Assembly (NCBI GenBank): GCA_903844815.1
Contig: CAIMVD010000156.1
Coordinates: 1 to 64,000, forward strand
Reading direction: 5' to 3'
DNA: 64,000 nucleotides
DNA from: an uncultured Bacteroidota bacterium
GTDB lineage: Bacteria > Bacteroidota > Bacteroidia > Bacteroidales > VadinHA17
Shown: in pieces, positions 48,625 through 59,622 of the stretch
Layout of the letters: each line of letters begins with the position of its first letter
Position numbering within the stretch: position 1 is the stretch's first letter
The notes under the pieces: generated by a model
What the model saw: the letters and a program-made list of their open reading frames with translations, nothing else
Told to the model about the DNA's origin: nothing
Database searches by the model: none
Made by a program: the position numbers and the translations under genes

Positions 48625-49264
48625 AAGAATCGAAAAAATTGAAGGCGGCTCCGGAGAAGAGAGTACTGGCTATACAAAGATCGAAACATGGGATGCCGCT
48701 ACAATAGAAGAACTTTCAACAATTTATTACAGGGTCCTTCAGCTTATCGGTGAAGATCCCGAGCGAGAAGGGCTGAAGAACACTCCATCAAGGGTTGCCA
48801 AATCTCTTAGTTTTCTTACAAGGGGTTATGAACAGGATCCCTGTGCAATTCTAAACTCGGCAAAATTCAAGGAAGAATACAGGCAAATGGTCCTTGTAAA
48901 GGATATCGATATTTACTCAATGTGCGAACATCATATGCTCCCCTTTTTCGGGAAAGCTCATGTAGCCTATATTCCAAACGGTTACATAACAGGTCTGAGC
49001 AAGGTTGCAAGGGTTGTTGAGGCCTTCAGCAGAAGACTCCAGGTACAGGAAAGACTTACCACTCAGATCAGAAATTGCATCCAGGAGTGCCTCAATCCGA
49101 TGGGCGTTGCAGTTGTAATCGAGGCTCAGCACATGTGTATGCAGATAAGGGGCGTTCAAAAGCAAAATTCCGTCACAACAACCTCGGCATTTACCGGAGT
49201 TTTCCTCGAAAAACTGAATACCCGCGAAGAATTCATCCATCTTATAGGAACAAAACTTCACTAG
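48617..49264 (+). CDS. folE: GTP cyclohydrolase I
   Basis: 215 aa from ATG 48617; the longer upstream frame overlaps queD and lacks homology. Zinc ligands: [19 protein letters not shown] and [12 protein letters not shown]. Makes 7,8-dihydroneopterin triphosphate from GTP for folate and for QueD. Translationally coupled to queD. Confidence 0.93.
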
Positions 49265-49329
49265 GCTGTTACCTGAATAATAGGTCTTGTATATTTAAGA
49301 ATAAAACAATAAGAGTAAACAATTTAAAA

Positions 49330-50214
49330 ATGAAAGCATACGTTTTTCCCGGACAGGGTGCACAATTCATTGGAATGGGCAAGGATCTCTACGATAATTC
49401 TGCCCTCGCAAAAGAGATGTTTGAAAAAGCAAACTCCTTGCTTGGTTTCCCGATCACCGACCTGATGTTTTCAGGAACAGATGAAGACCTCAAACAGACA
49501 AAAGTCACTCAACCTGCTATATTTCTGCATTCAACCATACTTGCCGCAGTTCTCGGCGATTCATTCAGACCCGATATGGTAGCTGGCCACTCCCTTGGCG
49601 AATTCTCAGCCCTGGTAGCAAATAAAACGCTGTCGTTCGAAGATGCCCTTATACTGGTATCAAAAAGGGCATTGGCAATGCAGAAGGCCTGCGAACTCGC
49701 ACCTTCAACGATGGCCGCGATACTGGGGCTCGACGATAAAATTGTCGAAGAAGTATGTGCTTCTCTAAATGAGGTTGTTGTACCGGCAAATTATAACAGC
49801 CCGGGCCAGATAGTCATTTCAGGCTCAAATGCCGGAATTGATCTGGCTATCGAAGCTTTGAAGGAGAAAGGTGCAAAGAGAGCTCTTAAACTTGCAGTAG
49901 GCGGAGCCTTTCACTCTCCTTTGATGGAACCTGCACGTATTGAGCTTGAATTGGCAATAAACTCAACTAATTTCAGCAAACCGGTCTGCCCTGTTTATCA
50001 AAATGTAAATGCCAGACCCTCGGTCGATCCTGATCAGATAAAATCAAACCTTGTATCGCAGCTAACATCTCCGGTACGCTGGACACAAAGCATTCTAAAC
50101 ATGATCGCCGACGGAGCCTCTTCATTTACTGAAGTCGGCCCCGGGAATGTACTGCAGGGACTTATCAAAAAAATAAACAAGGAAGCTGTCACGCAGGGAG
50201 CTAAACTACAGTAA
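49330..50214 (+). CDS. fabD: Malonyl-CoA-ACP transacylase
   Basis: 294 aa from ATG 49330 (MKAYVFPGQGAQFIGMGKDLY); an upstream frame running through folE is a shadow. Nucleophile elbow VAGHSLGEFSALV (Ser88) and the catalytic His in GGAFHSPLM. It loads malonyl groups on ACP for fatty acid synthesis. No other fab genes adjacent. Confidence 0.95.
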   Translation: MKAYVFPGQGAQFIGMGKDLYDNSALAKEMFEKANSLLGFPITDLMFSGTDEDLKQTKVTQPAIFLHSTILAAVLGDSFRPDMVAGHSLGEFSALVANKTLSFEDALILVSKRALAMQKACELAPSTMAAILGLDDKIVEEVCASLNEVVVPANYNSPGQIVISGSNAGIDLAIEALKEKGAKRALKLAVGGAFHSPLMEPARIELELAINSTNFSKPVCPVYQNVNARPSVDPDQIKSNLVSQLTSPVRWTQSILNMIADGASSFTEVGPGNVLQGLIKKINKEAVTQGAKLQ

Positions 50215-50218
50215 CAGG

Positions 50219-53191
50219 TCAAGCAGGCTTGATGATTACGCCTTTGTGTTTTTTTCCGTCGATCATTATTTCCAGAGGCGCGGCAAAGTTCACATGTCGG
50301 ATGTAACCGTCTTCATATACGGGATTTAGCCCGTTAAGAAAGTCAACATTATAAAATCCCTCGTTTATAAAGGGGTTTATTGTAAAATACCCTACCCTGA
50401 AAGAGGTGAGGTTCTGGAAAAAATGTGTTCCCTGGCTTGGGTCGATCCTGTAGTTTTTGAGTCCTGATTCTATTATTATCCTTGCAGCCGATATCTGGGG
50501 CCATTTTACCGGAATGCCAAGCCATGGATCGGCAGAGCCCCATCTTCCGGGTCCGATAAGTATGTATCCTTTCCCCTGCTTTACAAACTTTAAGTTTATT
50601 TTCTCTATTTCAATTGCAACGGCTTTATTATTTGCGGCATTAAATGATTCCGGTTTAACATATACGATGTCGTGGATACCCCGGAAGACTCCGTTGCCCA
50701 AAGCTGAGTCGGACGAAATAATAGTATCCTCTTTTCGTATCATGTCAAGGTTTAAATTATGCGTCTCCTCGGTATGTACTATCGGACGTATCTGAAGGAA
50801 GCTGAATATCTTAGGTGTTCCGGGAGGAGTTTCAAGATTTGCTGCAAATTCGATTTCGATCGGATTATTCATTTCGCGCTGTCCTATCTCGAGTAGTGTA
50901 GTGAGAATTTCGGCAAGCGGGAACATCTTGTGCTGAAGAATATTAGAGAAAGTTATTATCCGTTTGCCCGGATGCATTATTCCATCGCGAAGCATGTTGT
51001 TATTCCTGTCGTATGTTGATACCACATATTTAGCAGCTGCATCATTATTCATATCCTTAGTGTCGATCCTCAGAATATTTACACCGTCGTCAGTAGAAGG
51101 AACGAAACTGTCAATATTAAGATCGAGTGCGTAAAACTCCTTTTGAGTATCACGCAGGGCGGCTTCTGGAGATGAAAGCTGGAGTATTTTTTTGGGATGC
51201 TTCGGGGAAAACCTTAAAGATAATCCGCCTTCAACTATCAGCTTACCGAGCCCGAAAGCAACATTCACGATCCCGTCCTCTGCTTTTTCAGAACCGATAG
51301 GATAATAATTTATTGACCGGGCGACACCTGAAAAGGTAGGATAAAATATACCCCCATGCTGGTTTCCGCAAACTTCCTGCAAAATTATCCCCATCTTTTC
51401 CTCATCGATAACATTTGCTGTTGCCGTCATATATGCCTTGCTGTCCTTATAATAAACCGAGGCATACACCTCCTTAATAGCATCCGACAACAATTTAACC
51501 ATCATCTTATTATCAGGATGGCGCGGTATCATATAGGTGGAATAAATCCCGGCAAAGGGCTGATAATGCGAATCTTCCAGCTTGCTTGAAGAACGTACGG
51601 CTATCGGTACATTCTTGGAGACGGACAGGAAAGCGTAGAAATCCTGGTAAACATTGCCCGGAAGCTCTGCATTAATGAACCTGTTCAGGATCTCATCGTC
51701 GGAAAGATCGGACAGGGCTACAGAATAAAGATTATTCTGGTCCATGAACTCATCAAATACATCGGTGCTAAGCACAACAGTCCTTGGAATTGTAATAAGA
51801 ACATCGGGAAACTTATTAAAAAGTTTGTTCGTTTTAATCGTGCTGTTTATAAAAGCAAGCCCCCGGGCCTTTCCTCCAATCGAACCTTCGCCAATCCTCG
51901 AAAATGTCTGGTACTCATCGAAGCTTGTCTTGTCGAACTTTGCTATTATTCCCCTGCCCTTTCCGAGCCTGAAACTGGATATTGCCACATAGAGGAATTT
52001 CCTCATCTCATCCATCGAATCGAAATCTTCCTTACCTATATACTTAAACATTTGGGCTACTGGAAACAGAGCTCTAGCGTTCAGCCATTTCGAAAAATGA
52101 TTCCGTGTTGCGTGGTATTCCAGGGTATTGTCAGGAATGGTAAGCAGTTTCTGCTGAAGGCTTTGGAGGTCAGTGGCAATGGCAATAGGCTCGAGTGTCT
52201 CAGGGTTACGGAAAACGAAAGGCCCGAATGCAAGGTTCTGGATGATGAAGTTTCGTAATTCGAGCGATAACGACTTGGAATACTTATTTATAAATCCGGC
52301 ACCAAGCTCTTCTGCAATTTTCTTATGTTTTGTACTGGACGACTGGATGAGGAAAGGAACCTTGTCATCGTCGGCCATTACAACCTTGCAAAGTTCGATA
52401 CCGGCATTCTCATCAGTAACGTTATCGCGCTTATAGCTTATATCGGATATTACACCAAGGACATTGTATTTATACTTATTATAGAGGATGACAGCATCGT
52501 TGAAATTATTTGCCAGGAGAATCTTCGGTCGGCCTCTCATTTTAAGCATCCTCTGGTGCTCATTCAGAGCTTCCCGTTGAAAATCGAGTGACTGCAGCAG
52601 GACAATCCTGTAAATATTTGGCAGGTACGACGAGATATACCGGATTGAATTCTCAACGAGGATAATTGCCTGTACCCCGATATTCTCTATATCAAAATCG
52701 GCATTCATTTTATCCTCAATAAGTTTTATAATAGCAAGGATAAGCGAGGTATCGCCAAGCCAGCAGAAAACGTAATCTATGCCACTAAGGTCCTCCCCCT
52801 CAAGCCGTAATGAAACTTCCCTCGAAAAATATGTAAGAACCACTATGGGAACATTCTCATACTTTGCCTTGATCCGTTTTGCCAGGGCAAAGACATCGGT
52901 ACCCTTGAGACTAAGCATTGAAATTACAAGGTCAATATTTCCTTCCTTAAGTATTCTGAAAGCGTCCTCGGCATTGTCGGTCTGCACAAAAGTAGGCGGA
53001 TACCTGAGGTTAAGCGAAGCATATTCATTGAAAATCTGTTCATCAATCCTGCCATCCTCCTCCAGCATATAGTTATCATAATTGCTGCAAATGATCAGCA
53101 CCCTATGAATTCGCTTCTGCATCAGAAGATTAAAGGACGTATCTGTAAAATCATATTTCTGAAGATCGTGTATTCCTTCGATAAAGGTCAT
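50219..53191 (-). CDS. Two receiver-like domains fused to a PEP-synthase ATP-grasp domain (paralogue 2)
   Basis: 990 aa. Residues about 29-160 and 173-315 look like response-regulator receivers; the second keeps Asp250 (VISD) and a Lys in INKYS but has VENS where the acidic pair is usual. Then a linker (EYHATRNHFSKWLNARA), a PPDK_N/PEP-synthase ATP-grasp domain (IGEGSIGGKARGLAF, IAVRSSSKLEDSHYQPFAGIYSTY, GIILQEVCGN, and IEIEFAANL further on). A C-terminal domain has GPGRWGSADPWLGIPV and GTHFFQNLTS. The phosphohistidine and PEP-binding TIM-barrel domains of PEP synthase are absent, so PEP synthesis is unlikely. Paralogue of the gene 11 bases upstream. Function unknown. Confidence 0.75.
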   Translation of the reverse strand: MTFIEGIHDLQKYDFTDTSFNLLMQKRIHRVLIICSNYDNYMLEEDGRIDEQIFNEYASLNLRYPPTFVQTDNAEDAFRILKEGNIDLVISMLSLKGTDVFALAKRIKAKYENVPIVVLTYFSREVSLRLEGEDLSGIDYVFCWLGDTSLILAIIKLIEDKMNADFDIENIGVQAIILVENSIRYISSYLPNIYRIVLLQSLDFQREALNEHQRMLKMRGRPKILLANNFNDAVILYNKYKYNVLGVISDISYKRDNVTDENAGIELCKVVMADDDKVPFLIQSSSTKHKKIAEELGAGFINKYSKSLSLELRNFIIQNLAFGPFVFRNPETLEPIAIATDLQSLQQKLLTIPDNTLEYHATRNHFSKWLNARALFPVAQMFKYIGKEDFDSMDEMRKFLYVAISSFRLGKGRGIIAKFDKTSFDEYQTFSRIGEGSIGGKARGLAFINSTIKTNKLFNKFPDVLITIPRTVVLSTDVFDEFMDQNNLYSVALSDLSDDEILNRFINAELPGNVYQDFYAFLSVSKNVPIAVRSSSKLEDSHYQPFAGIYSTYMIPRHPDNKMMVKLLSDAIKEVYASVYYKDSKAYMTATANVIDEEKMGIILQEVCGNQHGGIFYPTFSGVARSINYYPIGSEKAEDGIVNVAFGLGKLIVEGGLSLRFSPKHPKKILQLSSPEAALRDTQKEFYALDLNIDSFVPSTDDGVNILRIDTKDMNNDAAAKYVVSTYDRNNNMLRDGIMHPGKRIITFSNILQHKMFPLAEILTTLLEIGQREMNNPIEIEFAANLETPPGTPKIFSFLQIRPIVHTEETHNLNLDMIRKEDTIISSDSALGNGVFRGIHDIVYVKPESFNAANNKAVAIEIEKINLKFVKQGKGYILIGPGRWGSADPWLGIPVKWPQISAARIIIESGLKNYRIDPSQGTHFFQNLTSFRVGYFTINPFINEGFYNVDFLNGLNPVYEDGYIRHVNFAAPLEIMIDGKKHKGVIIKPA

Positions 53192-53202
53192 AAATAAAAT
53201 AT

Positions 53203-56200
53203 TTAATTATTGATTGATATTACGGCCATCCCTCTTTTGCCGTCCATTCTGATAAGCAGTGGCTTTTTGAACCTTATATGCCTGAAAAACCTGCCCTGCT
53301 CAATAATATCCTGTTTTTCGAGTTTCTCCCAAATTAAAGTATTTCCGAAAACACCCTGACTGACTGAAAAATACCCTACGTTCATCGATGTTACATTATG
53401 AAAGAAATGAGAACCAAGTGAAGCATCTACATGAAAATCAGGCAGGTTTACTTCTACAATTACTTTTGCATTCGAAATCTGCGGCCATACAACCGGAATG
53501 CCAAGGAATCTGTCTTTAGTCCCCCATCTTCCGGGGCCGATAAGAACATACTTTCTGTTTTCCTTCATCATCTTCTGATTCATCCGGTCAATTTCGGCTG
53601 CCATCTCAATAGTTAACAGATTAGTGAATTTTCGTGGTTCAACATATATTATATCTGCAATATCGTCAATAACTCCATTTCCCATGCTTTTTTTGGTTAC
53701 AAGTATCAGGTCGTCATTGCAGATAGTATCAGGGTCAATCGAATAACCCGCTCCGCTGCCTACAAGAGGCTTGATCTGAAGCAGATAAAATGAGGACTTC
53801 CCAGTTGCATCTCTGGTAAGGTCAACAGCAAATTCGATCTCGACAGGAGTACCAAAAGCTTCTTTTACAACATCGAGTACTATACGAATAGTTGCCGCAA
53901 GCGGCACATATTCATATTTCAGGATATCTGCAAAATTAATAACCCTCGGTCCCTGTGAATCGAGTCCCGGGATTATTACATCATTATCAACGTTGAGAAC
54001 TGAAGCAGAATGGGTTAGTGTTCCGTGTTTTTCAGCTTCGCTTATATCGAGAACGACAAGGCCGGCTTCTTCGCCTTCAAGGAGATCAGGATCAGGCTTG
54101 GCCATATCAACAGCATAAAACTGAACCTGCGAGTTTTTGTACAGATCTTTATGTGAGGTGAAATCGAGCGACGGGTATGCCGGTGAGAATCTGTAAGCGT
54201 TGTTTCCCTCAACAACATATTGGCCAAGCCCTACGGCCATAACCGCAAATCCATCCTGCGGGGTTGAATGCGACACCGGGTAATAGTTGAATGATTGTGC
54301 AGTACCGCTTATATGCGGATAAAAAGCATCCCCGAATCTGTTTCCAACCACCTCCTGAATGACTATTGCCATCTTTTCCTGTTCTATTTTGTAATTAATG
54401 GCTTCAAAATATATTCGGGAATTTTCGGAGTAAATTGACGAAAACACCAACTTGATTGCATCAGACAACTGCCTGAGCCTCACCTCAGGATCAGGATTTA
54501 TATTTGGAAGAATATAGGTGCCGAAGATTCCCGAGAAAGGCTGGCTCATAGAATCTTCAAACAAACTCGATGATCTCACAGCAATCGGTTTGACTATCTG
54601 TTTAATGAAAGCCCGGAGATTCTTTTCAAGTGTGTAACTCAGGTTCCCGTTCAGAAATTTATCCTTAATTACGGAGTACTCCTTTTCTTTTGTTACCACC
54701 TCCCAAAGATGATTCCGTTCCATGAACATGTCAAATTCATCGGTCCCAATGATCGTTGTAACCGGGGTTTTGATATTTATTCCCGGTATCAGGCGCCCAA
54801 GTTCAAAACTATATATTAAAGTATTGGCAAATGCCAGTCCCCGTCCTTTTCCTCCCAGAGATCCTGCGGAAAAACTAACTACGTTGGTCTCATTAATGAT
54901 AGCCGATTCTTCAAAGTTAACAACCTTCCCCTTGTTTGACTCCACTCGTCTTGTCCGGATCAAATCAATGAGGAACTCCCGCATCTCTTTAAGGCTTTTG
55001 AAATCAGATACTTTCATGGGAGTTATCTTCTTAGCAATAATAACCTCTCCCCTGGCCATAAGCCATAGGGAAAAATGATTTTTCATAGCATGATAGGCCA
55101 GTGAATCTTCGGGGACTGTCTGAAGGTAAGCCTCGAATTCCTTCATCGATTTTGCAACTGCAATCTGCTGTCCCCGCGTATCCCTGTAAATAAAATGACC
55201 AAATCCCAGGTAATAATTAATGAAAAGTTTAAGATCCTGCAGGAGGCTTTCGGAGTTTTTGTTAATAAAGTTCGATTTAAGTTTATAGGCAAACCTGGCG
55301 TTTTCAGGATCTGATGACTGGAGAACGGTAGGCAGATTCGGGAGTTCGTTTTTTACATGCTGTATCAGGTCAAATCCTGCTGTATCATTGAGGACTCCAT
55401 TTTTGGGGAATCTCATATCGGAGATTACACAAAGGAGTTTGTCCTTGTATTTATTATATGTAATCAGGGAATCCTCATAATCGGAGGCCAGGATAATTTT
55501 GGGCCGGGCCCTTAGCTTCAGAACTTTATATAGTTCATCAGTTGAAACATCCTCGATCAGGTTCCTTGTCTGTTCCATTACCAGGGTGTAAAGCATCGGA
55601 AGATACCTGGAATAATACTCGGCAGAATCCTCCACTATAAGTATTACCCTTGTCAGGCCTTTTTGAGTATCATTCTCCACATTAACCCTGTCTTCGAGCA
55701 GGGTTACCATTGCAAAAAAAACTTTAGACTCTCCGGTCCAGACAAAGTAGTTATCAAATGGAATGCCAAGGCTTTTTTGCTTTTTAACGTAGGGTATGTC
55801 TCCCTGGTTATTGAGCAAAAGAAAGGTAGGAATATAGGGATATTTCTTCTTAATTTTCATGCAGAGGTCCATCGGGCTCTCCTTATCGACACCTATCATA
55901 ATAATGATCATGTCGTAGTGCCTTGCTTTAAGACGCAGGAAAGCCTCTTCCTCGCCTGAAACTCCTGTAACCCTCGGGATAGATGTCAAACTCAACTGAT
56001 AGTATTCACCGAGGATGTGGTCTGAAAAACGTCCTTCTCCTTCAATTGAATAGGCATCATAGAGGTTTGCAACCAGTAAGATCTCCCTGACTTTAAAAGG
56101 CATCAGGTCATGAAAAACATCCCGCTCGGCATTATGACGATCAAGGAATTTCTGGAGCAATTTTCTGCTTGAAATATTTTGAAGTTCCTCGTCATCCTTG

Positions 56201-56649
56201 GTAGGCGGCTGGGTCTGACGGATAAGATCCCTTGCCTTGTAACTGTTGATAAATCCGGTTAACATTCCTCCGATGTTCTGGATGAGGTCGCGCTCCTCCT
56301 TTAAAAACGGGCCCTCTTTTTCAGAATTGAATTCAGAGGTGTAAAATATTTCAACTGATCCCTTTTCTCCATCAATAGTAGAAAATTCCTGAATCATTTT
56401 CCACTTTGTCTCATTGAACCCCGCCGATTCAAATTTTTTTGTCATAAATTTTATGCGGGCAACAGTAAATTCAGGATATTGCCACCCTGCCGGAAGAATG
56501 AGAACTACTTCCTGAAGTGTCTCTTCAACTGTTTTTCCCTGCTTAAGAATTGCCGTGGTCTGGTTAATGCATGCCAGTTCTTTCAAACGTTCATGCTGAT
56601 CATGCAGTAACCGTCTGTACTGAGGATTAATCTGACCTAAATCGTCCAT
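53203..56649 (-). CDS. GAF-like/receiver/PEP-synthase ATP-grasp protein (paralogue 1)
   Basis: 1148 aa from ATG 56649 (TTG at 56658 precedes). Residues 1-145 resemble a GAF sensor. Two receiver-like domains (about 188-320 and 333-478) follow; the second has VEDS and Asp in VISDMRF. Then NHFSLWLMARGE, the ATP-grasp domain (SAGSLGGKGRGLAF, IAVRSSSLFEDSMSQPFSG, AIVIQEVVGN, VEIEFAVDL) and a C-terminal domain (GPGRWGTKDRFLGIPV, GSHFFHNVTS). Like its paralogue it lacks the phosphohistidine and PEP domains. It could be a phosphotransfer or ATP-dependent ligase/kinase under two-component-type control (inference). Confidence 0.75.
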   Translation of the reverse strand: MDDLGQINPQYRRLLHDQHERLKELACINQTTAILKQGKTVEETLQEVVLILPAGWQYPEFTVARIKFMTKKFESAGFNETKWKMIQEFSTIDGEKGSVEIFYTSEFNSEKEGPFLKEERDLIQNIGGMLTGFINSYKARDLIRQTQPPTKDDEELQNISSRKLLQKFLDRHNAERDVFHDLMPFKVREILLVANLYDAYSIEGEGRFSDHILGEYYQLSLTSIPRVTGVSGEEEAFLRLKARHYDMIIIMIGVDKESPMDLCMKIKKKYPYIPTFLLLNNQGDIPYVKKQKSLGIPFDNYFVWTGESKVFFAMVTLLEDRVNVENDTQKGLTRVILIVEDSAEYYSRYLPMLYTLVMEQTRNLIEDVSTDELYKVLKLRARPKIILASDYEDSLITYNKYKDKLLCVISDMRFPKNGVLNDTAGFDLIQHVKNELPNLPTVLQSSDPENARFAYKLKSNFINKNSESLLQDLKLFINYYLGFGHFIYRDTRGQQIAVAKSMKEFEAYLQTVPEDSLAYHAMKNHFSLWLMARGEVIIAKKITPMKVSDFKSLKEMREFLIDLIRTRRVESNKGKVVNFEESAIINETNVVSFSAGSLGGKGRGLAFANTLIYSFELGRLIPGINIKTPVTTIIGTDEFDMFMERNHLWEVVTKEKEYSVIKDKFLNGNLSYTLEKNLRAFIKQIVKPIAVRSSSLFEDSMSQPFSGIFGTYILPNINPDPEVRLRQLSDAIKLVFSSIYSENSRIYFEAINYKIEQEKMAIVIQEVVGNRFGDAFYPHISGTAQSFNYYPVSHSTPQDGFAVMAVGLGQYVVEGNNAYRFSPAYPSLDFTSHKDLYKNSQVQFYAVDMAKPDPDLLEGEEAGLVVLDISEAEKHGTLTHSASVLNVDNDVIIPGLDSQGPRVINFADILKYEYVPLAATIRIVLDVVKEAFGTPVEIEFAVDLTRDATGKSSFYLLQIKPLVGSGAGYSIDPDTICNDDLILVTKKSMGNGVIDDIADIIYVEPRKFTNLLTIEMAAEIDRMNQKMMKENRKYVLIGPGRWGTKDRFLGIPVVWPQISNAKVIVEVNLPDFHVDASLGSHFFHNVTSMNVGYFSVSQGVFGNTLIWEKLEKQDIIEQGRFFRHIRFKKPLLIRMDGKRGMAVISINN

Positions 56650-56683
56650 AGCCGGCAATACAGTTTAATCAAGACTTAAAATT

Positions 56684-56753: not shown

Positions 56754-57776
56754 TTATTCGACGACCCAGGTTGATCCGCTCATAAGAAGATCGTCCATGC
56801 ATTTGATTTTTGATTGTGACTTTACTGATTCAATCTGTTCATGAACAGCAGCATCATAGGTAATTCCCGGAACTGACCTGATAACACCCAGGGCAACAGG
56901 ATATTCCGGATAATCCATATTGGCGAGCATATAATGTATTCCGGGATTTGCTTCAACGGCATCATGCACCAAAAGATCCTTTTCGGTGACCCCATTTTCG
57001 CCAATCTTAATCACTTTCAGCTTCAAGCCGTCAAGAACTAGGCCCTTGTCATTATTCTTTCCAAAAATCATCGGTTGTCCGTGCTTAAGAATAATGGTAC
57101 GGTCATCACGAACCTCCTTTCCTACAACAACATCATGAATAGCATCATTGAAGATGACACAATTCTGAAGCACTTCCACTACAGAAGTCCCCTTATGCTT
57201 TGCGGCTTCAATATAAACCTGAGTCGACAGGGCAAGATTTGCATCGACTGTCCGCGCAAAAAATTTGCCTCTTGCACCAATCACCAGATCGCCGACTGAA
57301 AATGGTTCCTCAACAGTCCCAAAGGGCGATGTTTTCGTAACCAGTCCCTTAGATGAAGTAGGTGAATATTGCCCTTTTGTAAGGCCATATATTTCGTTAT
57401 TGAAAAGCAGGATATTTATATCGATGTTTCGGCGAACAGCATGAATAAAATGGTTTCCTCCGATCGCGAGGGCATCCCCGTCACCTGTTATCTGCCAGAC
57501 CGACAGATCCGGATTAGCTGTTTTTACGCCGGTTGCAATTGCAGAGGCACGTCCGTGAATACTGTGAAAACCATAGGTATCCATATAATACGGAAACCTT
57601 GAGGAGCATCCGATTCCCGATATGAAAGCGAATTTTTCCTTTGGTATTCCCAACTCTGCAACCGCTCTCTGCACAGCATTAAGAACTGCATGATCGCCGC
57701 ATCCCGGACACCATCTGATCTCCTGATCGCTCTTAAAATCCTTTGGAGTAAGTTTATTTACGAGTATCTCAGCCAT
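56754..57776 (-). CDS. korB: 2-oxoacid:ferredoxin oxidoreductase beta subunit
   Basis: 340 aa. TPP-binding beta subunit: IRWCPGCGDHAVLNAVQRAV, then ITGDGDALAIGGNHFIHAVRRNIDI and FNNEIYGLTKGQYSPTS. With KorA it oxidises a 2-oxoacid (probably 2-oxoglutarate) to acyl-CoA and reduces ferredoxin. One base separates it from the korA stop. Confidence 0.93.
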   Translation of the reverse strand: MAEILVNKLTPKDFKSDQEIRWCPGCGDHAVLNAVQRAVAELGIPKEKFAFISGIGCSSRFPYYMDTYGFHSIHGRASAIATGVKTANPDLSVWQITGDGDALAIGGNHFIHAVRRNIDINILLFNNEIYGLTKGQYSPTSSKGLVTKTSPFGTVEEPFSVGDLVIGARGKFFARTVDANLALSTQVYIEAAKHKGTSVVEVLQNCVIFNDAIHDVVVGKEVRDDRTIILKHGQPMIFGKNNDKGLVLDGLKLKVIKIGENGVTEKDLLVHDAVEANPGIHYMLANMDYPEYPVALGVIRSVPGITYDAAVHEQIESVKSQSKIKCMDDLLMSGSTWVVE

Positions 57777-57777
57777 C

Positions 57778-59622
57778 TTATTTGTCCTCCAGTATTTTAA
57801 TGCATTTTTCTTTAATATCTCTAATAGTAAACGGAAGTCCCTGAACCTTGTTTAGTTGCTCGTAGGCAAACTCCTGATGCTCCATCCTGAGATAACCGGC
57901 AAACTGACCTAGGTTAAGTTCGCAAACGAGAATATTTTTAAACCTGCTGAAGACATCCTTAACATTTCGCGGGAGAGGGTTGATATAGTTGAAGTTTACC
58001 AGGCTTACGCTACGGCCTTCGGCCTGCAATTCGCGCACAGCAGTTATCAGGTAGCCATACGATCCTCCCCAGCCCACAACCAGAAGATCACCTTCCTGTT
58101 TGCCATAAACATCAATATCGGGGATGAAATTTGCAACACGCTTAACTTTTTCGTCCCTTATATTCACCATATGTTCGTGGTTTTCAGGAACATACGAAAC
58201 GGTTCCCTTCGTTGTCTTTTCAAGTCCGCCTATCCTGTGTTCCAAACCCTTAGTACCGGGAATAGCCCAGTAACGTGACAGTTTTTCACAATCGCGCTTA
58301 TAGGGATGAAAGGGAACTGATCCGCTTTCAGCGATTGGAGGGTTAATGGCAGGAAGGTCCTTCATTTCTGGTATCCTCCATGGTTCCGTTCCATTGGCAA
58401 GGTAGCTGTCAGAAAGAAGTATCACGGGTGTCATATGCTCAACGGCTATTTTTGCGGCTTCATAGGCAAATTTAAAACAGTCTGAAGGGGTACTTGCAGC
58501 TATAACTACCACAGGACATTCTCCATTCCGTCCGAAAAGTGCCTGAAAGAGGTCAGCCTGTTCTGTTTTTGTAGGCAACCCTGTGGAGGGTCCTCCCCTC
58601 TGAACATCGACTATAACAATTGGAAGCTCTGTCATCACTGCAAGACCAATGGCTTCCGATTTAAGTGCAAGGCCCGGACCTGATGTTGTTGTTATGGCAA
58701 GTTTCCCGGCAAAGCTGGCGCCAAGAGCCGTGCAGATTCCTGCTATTTCATCTTCAGCCTGTACACTTATAACGCCCAAATCCTTATGTGCAGCCAGCTC
58801 CTCGAGTATTCCAGTTGCGGGGGTTATGGGATAAGAACCTATAAAGATCTGAAGATTGGCTTTTTCTGCGGCAGCCATGAAACCCCATGCAGCAGCGGAA
58901 TTTCCTGCGATGTTGCGGTAAGTTCCTTTAGCTATAGGCGCCGGAAGAATTTTATACACCGGCCTCAGAGCTTCTATAGTCTCTCCATAATAGTATCCAG
59001 CCCGCAACGCGACCTTATTGGCTTCAGCTATTCCGGGTTTGTTGTGGAATTTTTTTTCAAAATATTTCTCAGTATAATCGAGCTTACGGTCAAAGAGCCA
59101 GTAAACCATGCCAAGAGCGAACATATTCTTAGTCCTGAGGGCCGATTTAGGATCGAGACCGAAATCCTTAAGTGCCTCTTTTACCATTGAGGATATTGGA
59201 GCATCAATAATATTATATCCGTCAAGCTTCTCCTCGGCAATAGGGTCCTTCTCGTATCCTGCCTTTTCAATATTCTTCTCGGTGAAATTATCCTTGTCAA
59301 AAATAATTGTTCCACCATCCTTCACCCATTTGATGTTTGCTTTGATTGCGGCGGGGTTCATTGCCACAAGAACGTCAGAGAAATCACCGGGAGTGTTTAT
59401 TTCAGAATGTCCCAGGTGAACCTGGAAACCTGAAACTCCTCCCACCGTTCCCTGAGGAGCCCGTATCTCAGCAGGATAATCGGGAAATGTTGATAAATCG
59501 TTACCGAACAGGGCAGCAGTATCGGAAAATAATGTCCCGGTAAGCTGCATTCCATCGCCCGAATCGCCTGAGAATCGGATAACGACCTCTTCTTTTTCGA
59601 TAACCTGTGATCTTTTAATCAT
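57778..59622 (-). CDS. korA: 2-oxoacid:ferredoxin oxidoreductase alpha subunit (gamma fused)
   Basis: 614 aa. Residues about 1-190 are the gamma domain (RFSGDSGDGMQLTGTLFS, AEIRAPQGTVGGVSGFQVH). The alpha domain follows (GSYPITPATGILEELAAH, QAEDEIAGICTALGASFAG, TTTSGPGLALKSEAIGLA, DVQRGGPSTGLPTKTEQADL). A 2-oxoglutarate role is favoured by the KorAB form, but other 2-oxoacids are possible. Confidence 0.93.
   Translation of the reverse strand: MIKRSQVIEKEEVVIRFSGDSGDGMQLTGTLFSDTAALFGNDLSTFPDYPAEIRAPQGTVGGVSGFQVHLGHSEINTPGDFSDVLVAMNPAAIKANIKWVKDGGTIIFDKDNFTEKNIEKAGYEKDPIAEEKLDGYNIIDAPISSMVKEALKDFGLDPKSALRTKNMFALGMVYWLFDRKLDYTEKYFEKKFHNKPGIAEANKVALRAGYYYGETIEALRPVYKILPAPIAKGTYRNIAGNSAAAWGFMAAAEKANLQIFIGSYPITPATGILEELAAHKDLGVISVQAEDEIAGICTALGASFAGKLAITTTSGPGLALKSEAIGLAVMTELPIVIVDVQRGGPSTGLPTKTEQADLFQALFGRNGECPVVVIAASTPSDCFKFAYEAAKIAVEHMTPVILLSDSYLANGTEPWRIPEMKDLPAINPPIAESGSVPFHPYKRDCEKLSRYWAIPGTKGLEHRIGGLEKTTKGTVSYVPENHEHMVNIRDEKVKRVANFIPDIDVYGKQEGDLLVVGWGGSYGYLITAVRELQAEGRSVSLVNFNYINPLPRNVKDVFSRFKNILVCELNLGQFAGYLRMEHQEFAYEQLNKVQGLPFTIRDIKEKCIKILEDK

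Follow-up and report, generated by a model that had tools for sequence, protein, structure and literature searches.

This locus raises the question of what is done by two giant, adjacent bacterial proteins in which receiver domains are joined to the ATP-grasp domain of phosphoenolpyruvate (PEP) synthase. Their genes, here called B (P0001) and A (P0002), lie in a stretch of 64,000 nucleotides (the window) from an uncultured Bacteroidota bacterium of the Bacteroidales lineage VadinHA17 (GenBank assembly GCA_903844815.1, contig CAIMVD010000156.1, positions 1 to 64,000). The family to which they belong is so far unnamed and patchily spread through the phylum. Since relatives often stand beside genes for glutamate dehydrogenase (GDH), and since the proteins are signal-sensing and ATP-binding by their domains, the pair is a good candidate for a missing switch on ammonia and glutamate metabolism. 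The family probably acts on GDH in some way. The chances appear about even that it acts on GDH, at the 2-oxoglutarate/glutamate junction, as an ATP-dependent and signal-gated phosphotransferase or regulator, and phosphoryl transfer as the means of that action is, on our analysis, a similarly balanced proposition. All such gradings in this text are our judgement.

Linkage to GDH was assessed in three sets of fetched regions (L numbers below; G numbers denote genomes). Set 1 came from a search of the phylum and held 40 regions of 31 genomes, with L052 from the window's class; the family loci of G062 and G196 and one of those in G176 lie outside it. GDH was the commonest neighbour in this set (33/40 regions; the next gene, 14/40), and it lay within 1 kb of a family gene in 31/40, always co-directionally, where the rough chance expectation is 0.1-0.4%. 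Set 2, made up of 40 hand-picked regions from 37 genomes that the searches of the class and of relatives had yielded, had GDH within 1 kb in 13/40 and anywhere in the stretch in 16/40. Set 3 consisted of the best 80 of at least 483 relatives in a scan of named genomes (Bacteroidaceae loci, no Bacteroides thetaiotaomicron record among them); within these best 80, GDH lay within 1 kb in 19, divergently in 17 of the 19, and anywhere in the stretch in 38. The convergent order was found in L126, L127 and L258. In Parabacteroides distasonis, gdhA was divergent from the family gene and a second NADP-GDH followed about 3.5 kb on, and in Bacteroides-like genomes the family gene was flanked by two GDH genes or adjoined them on one side, in convergent or divergent orientation, one of them sometimes tens of kb off. 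Co-directional, divergent and convergent forms of the link all occur, and the GDHs involved differ deeply. Genes designated kor preceded the family gene in 12 regions, the window included, and the run korA-korB-A-B-gdh was found in L151, L152 and L153, which represent three other families of the window's order. These runs tie the kor-A-B arrangement of the window to GDH.

Two further types of family member were found near GDH genes. Type C (9 aligned rows) is about 580 amino acids long and consists of the core only. Type D (16 rows, mostly about 1060 amino acids) has a sensor-like N-terminus, PPDK_N and the C-terminal domain, followed by NTP_transf_2 (PF01909) in two genes tested, L041:6765-9947 and L047:7641-10808; one tested D protein of 778 amino acids lacked NTP_transf_2. 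The D genes of L036, L038-L040, L041, L042-L044, L047 and L048 adjoin GDH, the contig of L038 stopping before it. Some D-type genes also adjoin histidine biosynthesis-like genes, as judged by eye. A metallophosphoesterase-cluster gene adjoined D in 8 of 9 regions with C and D (not in L069; Pfam tested in two) and lay between A and B in L138. A free protein of 282-283 amino acids, with a sensor-like domain (by eye) and NTP_transf_2, was also encoded between A and B (L138:10173-11024, where PF01909 was tested, and L139:10649-11497, whose protein is similar). Histidine kinase and LuxR-type genes followed the gdh-family cassette in L032, L054, L062 and L068 (of these, L032 was tested with Pfam). 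New here, relative to the initial annotation of this DNA, are the linkage to GDH, the core-only and nucleotidyltransferase-ended types and the neighbouring metallophosphoesterase.

The GDHs involved were typed, by our reading, from a tree that covered the 50 pairs in which family gene and GDH lay less than 1.5 kb apart. An NADP-type GDH accompanied an A/B-like gene in 36 of these pairs, and a type of 428-479 amino acids, close to archaeal and NAD-specific GDHs (one member tested), accompanied a C or D gene in 12; in the remaining two (L060 and L071), a B-like gene stood next to a GDH of a third type. An NADP-type GDH (E<=1e-100) was present in 56 genomes of the class sample. With family status taken from the phylum and class searches, the 6 of them that bear the family each had two copies and the 50 others one copy each (p 3e-8 without phylogenetic correction, 5 of the 6 family-bearing genomes coming from one order). 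When GDH columns specific to family-linked GDHs were sought, one, Met385, passed the cut; since methionine here is not a usual modified residue, no modification site on GDH is proposed.

Matches at E<=0.001 were found in 80/198 genomes of the phylum sample, in 34/198 below 1e-30; the remaining matches covered the receiver only, and none was better than 6e-8. The family was present in 18/395 genomes of the class sample, and a search of relatives with A gave a match in 54/60. Within the window's genus (36 genomes, its own included), 29 genomes had at least two matches (one fragmented), 3 had one and 4 had none. In the genus of G262, a member of the window's order, the family was present in 116/119 genomes and GDH in 119/119, and the G262 protein was an 87% match to Bacteroides oleiciplenus and B. 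timonensis. A plasmid collection, the sole search beyond the phylum, yielded three full-length matches to B, all from Bacteroidota. One plasmid-labelled record, L262 (NZ_OY725790.1), is a 278-kb sequence of P. distasonis that carries gdhA, ruvC and rapZ and resembles a piece of chromosome. A Parabacteroides member carries the annotation 'PEP/pyruvate-binding domain-containing protein'.

In the ATP-grasp part of the two window proteins, Pfam matched PPDK_N at E 8e-38 (B) and 1e-34 (A), and hhalign of the core to two PEP synthases gave 99.2%, with an aligned part (P0001 435-845) that ends before His923. An AlphaFold model of B (mean predicted local distance difference test score 75, predicted template modelling score (pTM) 0.48) retrieved with Foldseek the rifampin phosphotransferase ATP-grasp structure 5hv1 (E 2e-11) and 5hv6_B (E 1.2e-9; template modelling (TM) score 0.67 by target length), together with the tandem receivers of PleD (E 1.6e-6). 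Conservation was read from an alignment of the unique family open reading frames (ORFs) of the fetched loci, with 164 B-like, 42 A-like, 9 C and 16 D rows that include the window's own copies, duplicates, several rows per genome and fragments. Because the type labels were set by BLAST scores to P0001 versus P0002, 'B-like' also covers relatives from other classes that simply score closer to B than to A. Lys441, Arg533, Glu781 and Gln800 were invariant wherever aligned. Arg802 was invariant in B, C and D and was Lys in 42/42 A rows (Lys963 in the window's A), a consistent difference between A and B. We take these five residues to be the equivalents of the PPDK catalytic set. The IAVRSSS and QEV motifs are present in the pair, and the PPDK_N domain with intact-looking motifs that the initial annotation had described stands, the catalytic residues being kept in nearly all rows.

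The C-terminal domain of the pair, which carries the GPGRWG and G(S/T)HFF motifs, is likewise shared as had been noted: 224 rows, both window proteins counted, align across it. Gly880, Gly882, Arg883, Trp884, Gly885, Glu908, Ser919, Gly921 and His923 were invariant across all four types, and the GRWG and G(S/T)HFF motifs were nearly invariant in the family. The conservation of the C-terminal His had been put forward for checking, and His was found in 222/222 rows with a letter at that place (156 B, 41 A, 9 C and 16 D), directly preceded by Ser or Thr. About 185 residues are left after the ATP-grasp domain, and Pfam gave no match at E<=1 in the pair for a PEP/pyruvate barrel or for a phosphohistidine (PEP-utilizer, PF00391) domain, whose GGxTS/CHAA motif is absent. 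When modelled alone, the C-terminal 185 residues of B reached a pTM of 0.85. The Foldseek list for this model has at rank 9 the small subunit of aconitase-X (TM 0.40 by target) and at rank 11 a protease-associated domain, both presumably swivelling folds. A hidden phosphohistidine domain was considered because residues 822-945 occupy the place of the PEP synthase His domain and His923 starts a helix. It is not claimed here: hhalign of the C-terminus to 26 PEP-utilizer sequences gave a probability of 0.2%, the fold search returned no significant match, and a forced end-to-end alignment with PEP synthases did not place His923 on the catalytic His, although a very divergent one is conceivable. 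The earlier statement that the pair has neither a PEP barrel nor a recognisable phosphohistidine domain thus agrees with Pfam, hhalign and the fold search. The domain may be a new phosphocarrier, a substrate-binding domain with direct transfer, or part of a non-catalytic ATP sensor.

In front of the ATP-grasp domain, Pfam found Response_reg at E 3e-8 in B and at E 0.006, under the cut-off, in A. Receiver 2 has the complete acceptor Asp, Ser/Thr and Lys set of response regulators: Asp250 and Lys303 were present in 164/164 B and 42/42 A rows, and Ser284 in 163/164 B rows (Thr once) and 42/42 A rows. In receiver 1, the place of the acceptor Asp, as set by our own strand alignment, is taken by Met, Thr or, in one row, Trp. 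The tandem of receiver-like domains first described was upheld as a fold in the model of B, with one of its two members lacking the acceptor. The N-terminal domain of A recurs at the head of D-type relatives (E 1e-10 to 1e-18); its description as GAF-like is less secure, with no Pfam match at E<=5 and a single PDB sequence match at E 0.46. In the A-type relatives of L145, L149 and L157 (1397-1550 amino acids), this sensor-like domain is apparently repeated about three times, as judged by eye.

A substitution in receiver 2 (VENS versus VEDS) had been offered as an argument for an active/regulatory heteromer. Asn181 was present in 17/164 B rows. With a single exception (G442, L074) these come from the window's genus, and among them are rows from two genomes (G564 and G562, regions L162 and L163) in which the search turned up no A and B directly follows korB. 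Conversely, six B rows with Asp at 181 adjoin an A gene. The argument is weak, since VENS is a lineage marker that is found with and without a partner, and a heteromer is not proposed on this ground.

The genes are, as first described, adjacent paralogues 11 bases apart, of 990 and 1148 amino acids (1151 from the TTG), and both lie on the minus strand. The proteins are 35% identical, and when B was used to search the genome from which the window comes (6.37 Mb, 97.8% complete), no further copies appeared. Coordinates are collected in Table 1. A begins 95 bases downstream of the two oxidoreductase genes, which share its strand, and the alpha, beta, A and B genes look like a single transcription unit. 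On the plus strand, a fabD-like gene (by eye; window 49075-50218) is convergent with B and ends 4 bases from its stop; its longest ORF, at 379 amino acids, exceeds the roughly 293 of relatives and overlaps the preceding gene, so the true start is probably further in.

Table 1. Features of the gene pair and its upstream neighbours (window positions in nucleotides; layouts in residues)
Feature	Position	Strand	Basis or remark
Protein B (P0001), 990 aa, ATG start	50219-53191	minus	ORF list
Protein A (P0002), 1151 aa from TTG, 1148 aa from in-frame ATG at 56649	53203-56658	minus	ORF list
2-Oxoacid:ferredoxin oxidoreductase beta subunit-like gene	56754-57776	minus	95 bases upstream of A; match below curated cut-offs
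2-Oxoacid:acceptor oxidoreductase alpha subunit	57778-59622	minus	TIGR03710 above its cut-off; 1 base from beta gene
Layout of B	receiver 1 ~28-165; receiver 2 ~172-320; linker; PPDK_N ATP-grasp 437-816; C-terminal domain ~820-990	minus	Pfam, model; receiver limits from model
Layout of A	N-terminal sensor-like domain; two receivers; weak DUF5752 match 502-585; PPDK_N 600-966; C-terminal domain	minus	Pfam, sequence
C-terminal stretch of B, residues 806-990, GPGRWG and GTHFF, His923 at helix start	50222-50776	minus	motif, model
C-terminal stretch of A, residues 967-1151, GPGRWG and GSHFF, His1084	53206-53760	minus	sequence, alignment

The signal-controlled kinase or phosphotransferase that the initial annotation had suggested is reasonable, because the ATP-grasp domain is intact, no PEP barrel or phosphohistidine domain was recognised and the C-terminal His is invariant; its chemistry is a prediction. 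In such a system, receiver 2 would take up the signal on being phosphorylated by a histidine kinase or a small phosphodonor, and the N-terminal sensor-like domain of A could admit a second one. The ATP-grasp domain would bind ATP and pass a phosphoryl group to the C-terminal domain, as in rifampin phosphotransferase or PEP synthase. His923 is a candidate for the acceptor, and its role as phosphoryl carrier is possible, if doubtful. The group would then be placed on GDH or on a ligand bound to GDH, presumably changing GDH activity upward or downward. In the window's genus, the 2-oxoacid:ferredoxin oxidoreductase encoded next to the pair may be acted on as well.

Several observations weigh against this scheme. 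No GDH was present in the fetched stretch for 24/40 regions of set 2 and 42/80 of set 3 (some stretches being short), and in the window's genome both GDH genes lie on another contig (C70) with no family gene nearby. The family is missing from 50 of the 56 GDH-bearing genomes of the class sample. Distances between family members and GDHs were correlated (r 0.49, n=50), a figure that the species tree confounds. Matching of paralogues was consistent in 6 of 10 comparisons, and L060 took part in each of the four that failed; co-evolution of the family with GDH was for these reasons set aside. The core gave just 0.9% in hhalign to 18 PPDK and 7.8% to a mixed set of six proteins of the phosphotransferase-system type. 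The C-terminal domain has no recognised fold, Foldseek finding no PDB match below E 0.1 and nothing significant in a viral library, and the swivel motif T/SXXGGXXXH is absent from B, where YRIDPSQGT precedes His923.

The same evidence can be read in other ways. Family members could assist GDH allosterically or in its assembly, sensing the energy state by binding ATP (or AMP) and transferring no phosphate, a signal-driven conformational change activating or sheltering the GDH hexamer. The lack of a recognisable phosphohistidine domain or second-substrate barrel and the Lys that replaces the catalytic Arg in 42/42 A rows would suit such partners, and gene linkage fits them equally well. However, B, C and D keep the catalytic set more strictly than ATP binding alone needs, and phosphoesterase and nucleotidyltransferase genes recur beside some types. 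We consider this account rather unlikely. We also think it unlikely that the proteins are small-molecule dikinases, like rifampin phosphotransferase and HpeHI, acting on a metabolite near glutamate or 2-oxoglutarate, with GDH a pathway neighbour and not the target. Their closest matches are indeed ATP-grasp domains of PEP synthase, rifampin phosphotransferase and prodigiosin ligase, and linkage to GDH and 2-oxoacid oxidoreductase genes would suit a metabolite of that node; yet no substrate-binding domain was recognised, and the receivers, the sensor-like domains and the core-only C paired with D beside GDH look regulatory.

It is quite improbable that the linkage is inherited synteny and the proteins serve another signalling path. 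Stretches that lack GDH speak for it, namely those from the window's genus (L142-L144, L146-L148, L162 and L163) and many Prevotella loci; GDH was likewise absent from the stretches fetched for B. oleiciplenus and B. timonensis. Against it, the linkage recurs in several orientations, with different GDH types and in distant taxa. We put forward, as a tentative proposal that is less likely than not, a hitherto unrecognised post-translational control of GDH in Bacteroidota, in which PPDK_N proteins with receivers and sensors would phosphorylate GDH or its bound ligand through a new phosphocarrier domain (GRWG and G(S/T)HFF). Some lineages would add nucleotidyltransferase and metallophosphoesterase partners, and in the window's genus the control would be coupled to 2-oxoacid:ferredoxin oxidoreductase.

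If this proposal is true, an ATP-grasp domain of the PEP-synthase type has been put to regulatory use. No report naming this family or such control of GDH was found among the open-licence titles and starts of abstracts listed. By its title, a 1996 paper of Baggio and Morrison reportedly describes trans-acting gene(s) downstream of B. thetaiotaomicron gdhA that affect its activity, and a 3-kb downstream segment is said to have restored GDH activity in Escherichia coli. The family described here is a candidate for these genes, and a candidate beside gdh genes would give them a testable identity. In L252, the family gene is preceded by gdh and a catalase-like gene (by eye) and followed by another gdh. 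From this order, the catalase at BT_1971 and the GDH locus tags, BT_1972 is our guess for the family gene of B. thetaiotaomicron. The identity of BT_1971 as a catalase is given in PMC4595636 and PMC12596196. In Bacteroides fragilis, GDH is fundamental to nitrogen assimilation and two GDHs respond in opposite ways to organic nitrogen, according to PMC4539542, and two GDHs are described for Prevotella ruminicola in PMC5552732.

Known systems resemble the pair in parts. With PEP synthase (PpsA) and PPDK it shares the PPDK_N ATP-grasp domain, and B keeps the Lys, Arg, Glu, Gln, Arg set, by equivalences that we assume; it differs in having receivers in front, neither a PEP barrel nor a recognisable phosphohistidine domain behind, and a link to GDH. 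GlnE and GlnD are the nucleotidyltransferases of glutamine synthetase and PII. D-type relatives likewise place a nucleotidyltransferase domain next to an enzyme of nitrogen assimilation, whereas theirs is of the PF01909 type and none was found in the window's pair. The ATP-grasp fold (5hv1, 5hv6) is also that of rifampin phosphotransferase, HpeHI, CreHI and PpsAB. According to PMC12167813, the ATP-grasp domain of rifampin phosphotransferase and HpeHI phosphorylates a His of the swivel domain, in the motif T/SXXGGXXXH, and HpeHI carries the ATP-grasp and His parts on separate proteins. Unlike rifampin phosphotransferase and HpeHI, the pair has signal domains and lacks both this motif and a recognised substrate domain. 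In Actinobacteria, PknG-GarA/OdhI exerts joint post-translational control over GDH and 2-oxoglutarate dehydrogenase, as described in PMC5448819. The pair would control the same metabolic node, also post-translationally, and with no Pfam match in it to FHA or to a Ser/Thr kinase, it is a possible functional analogue of that system and not a relative.

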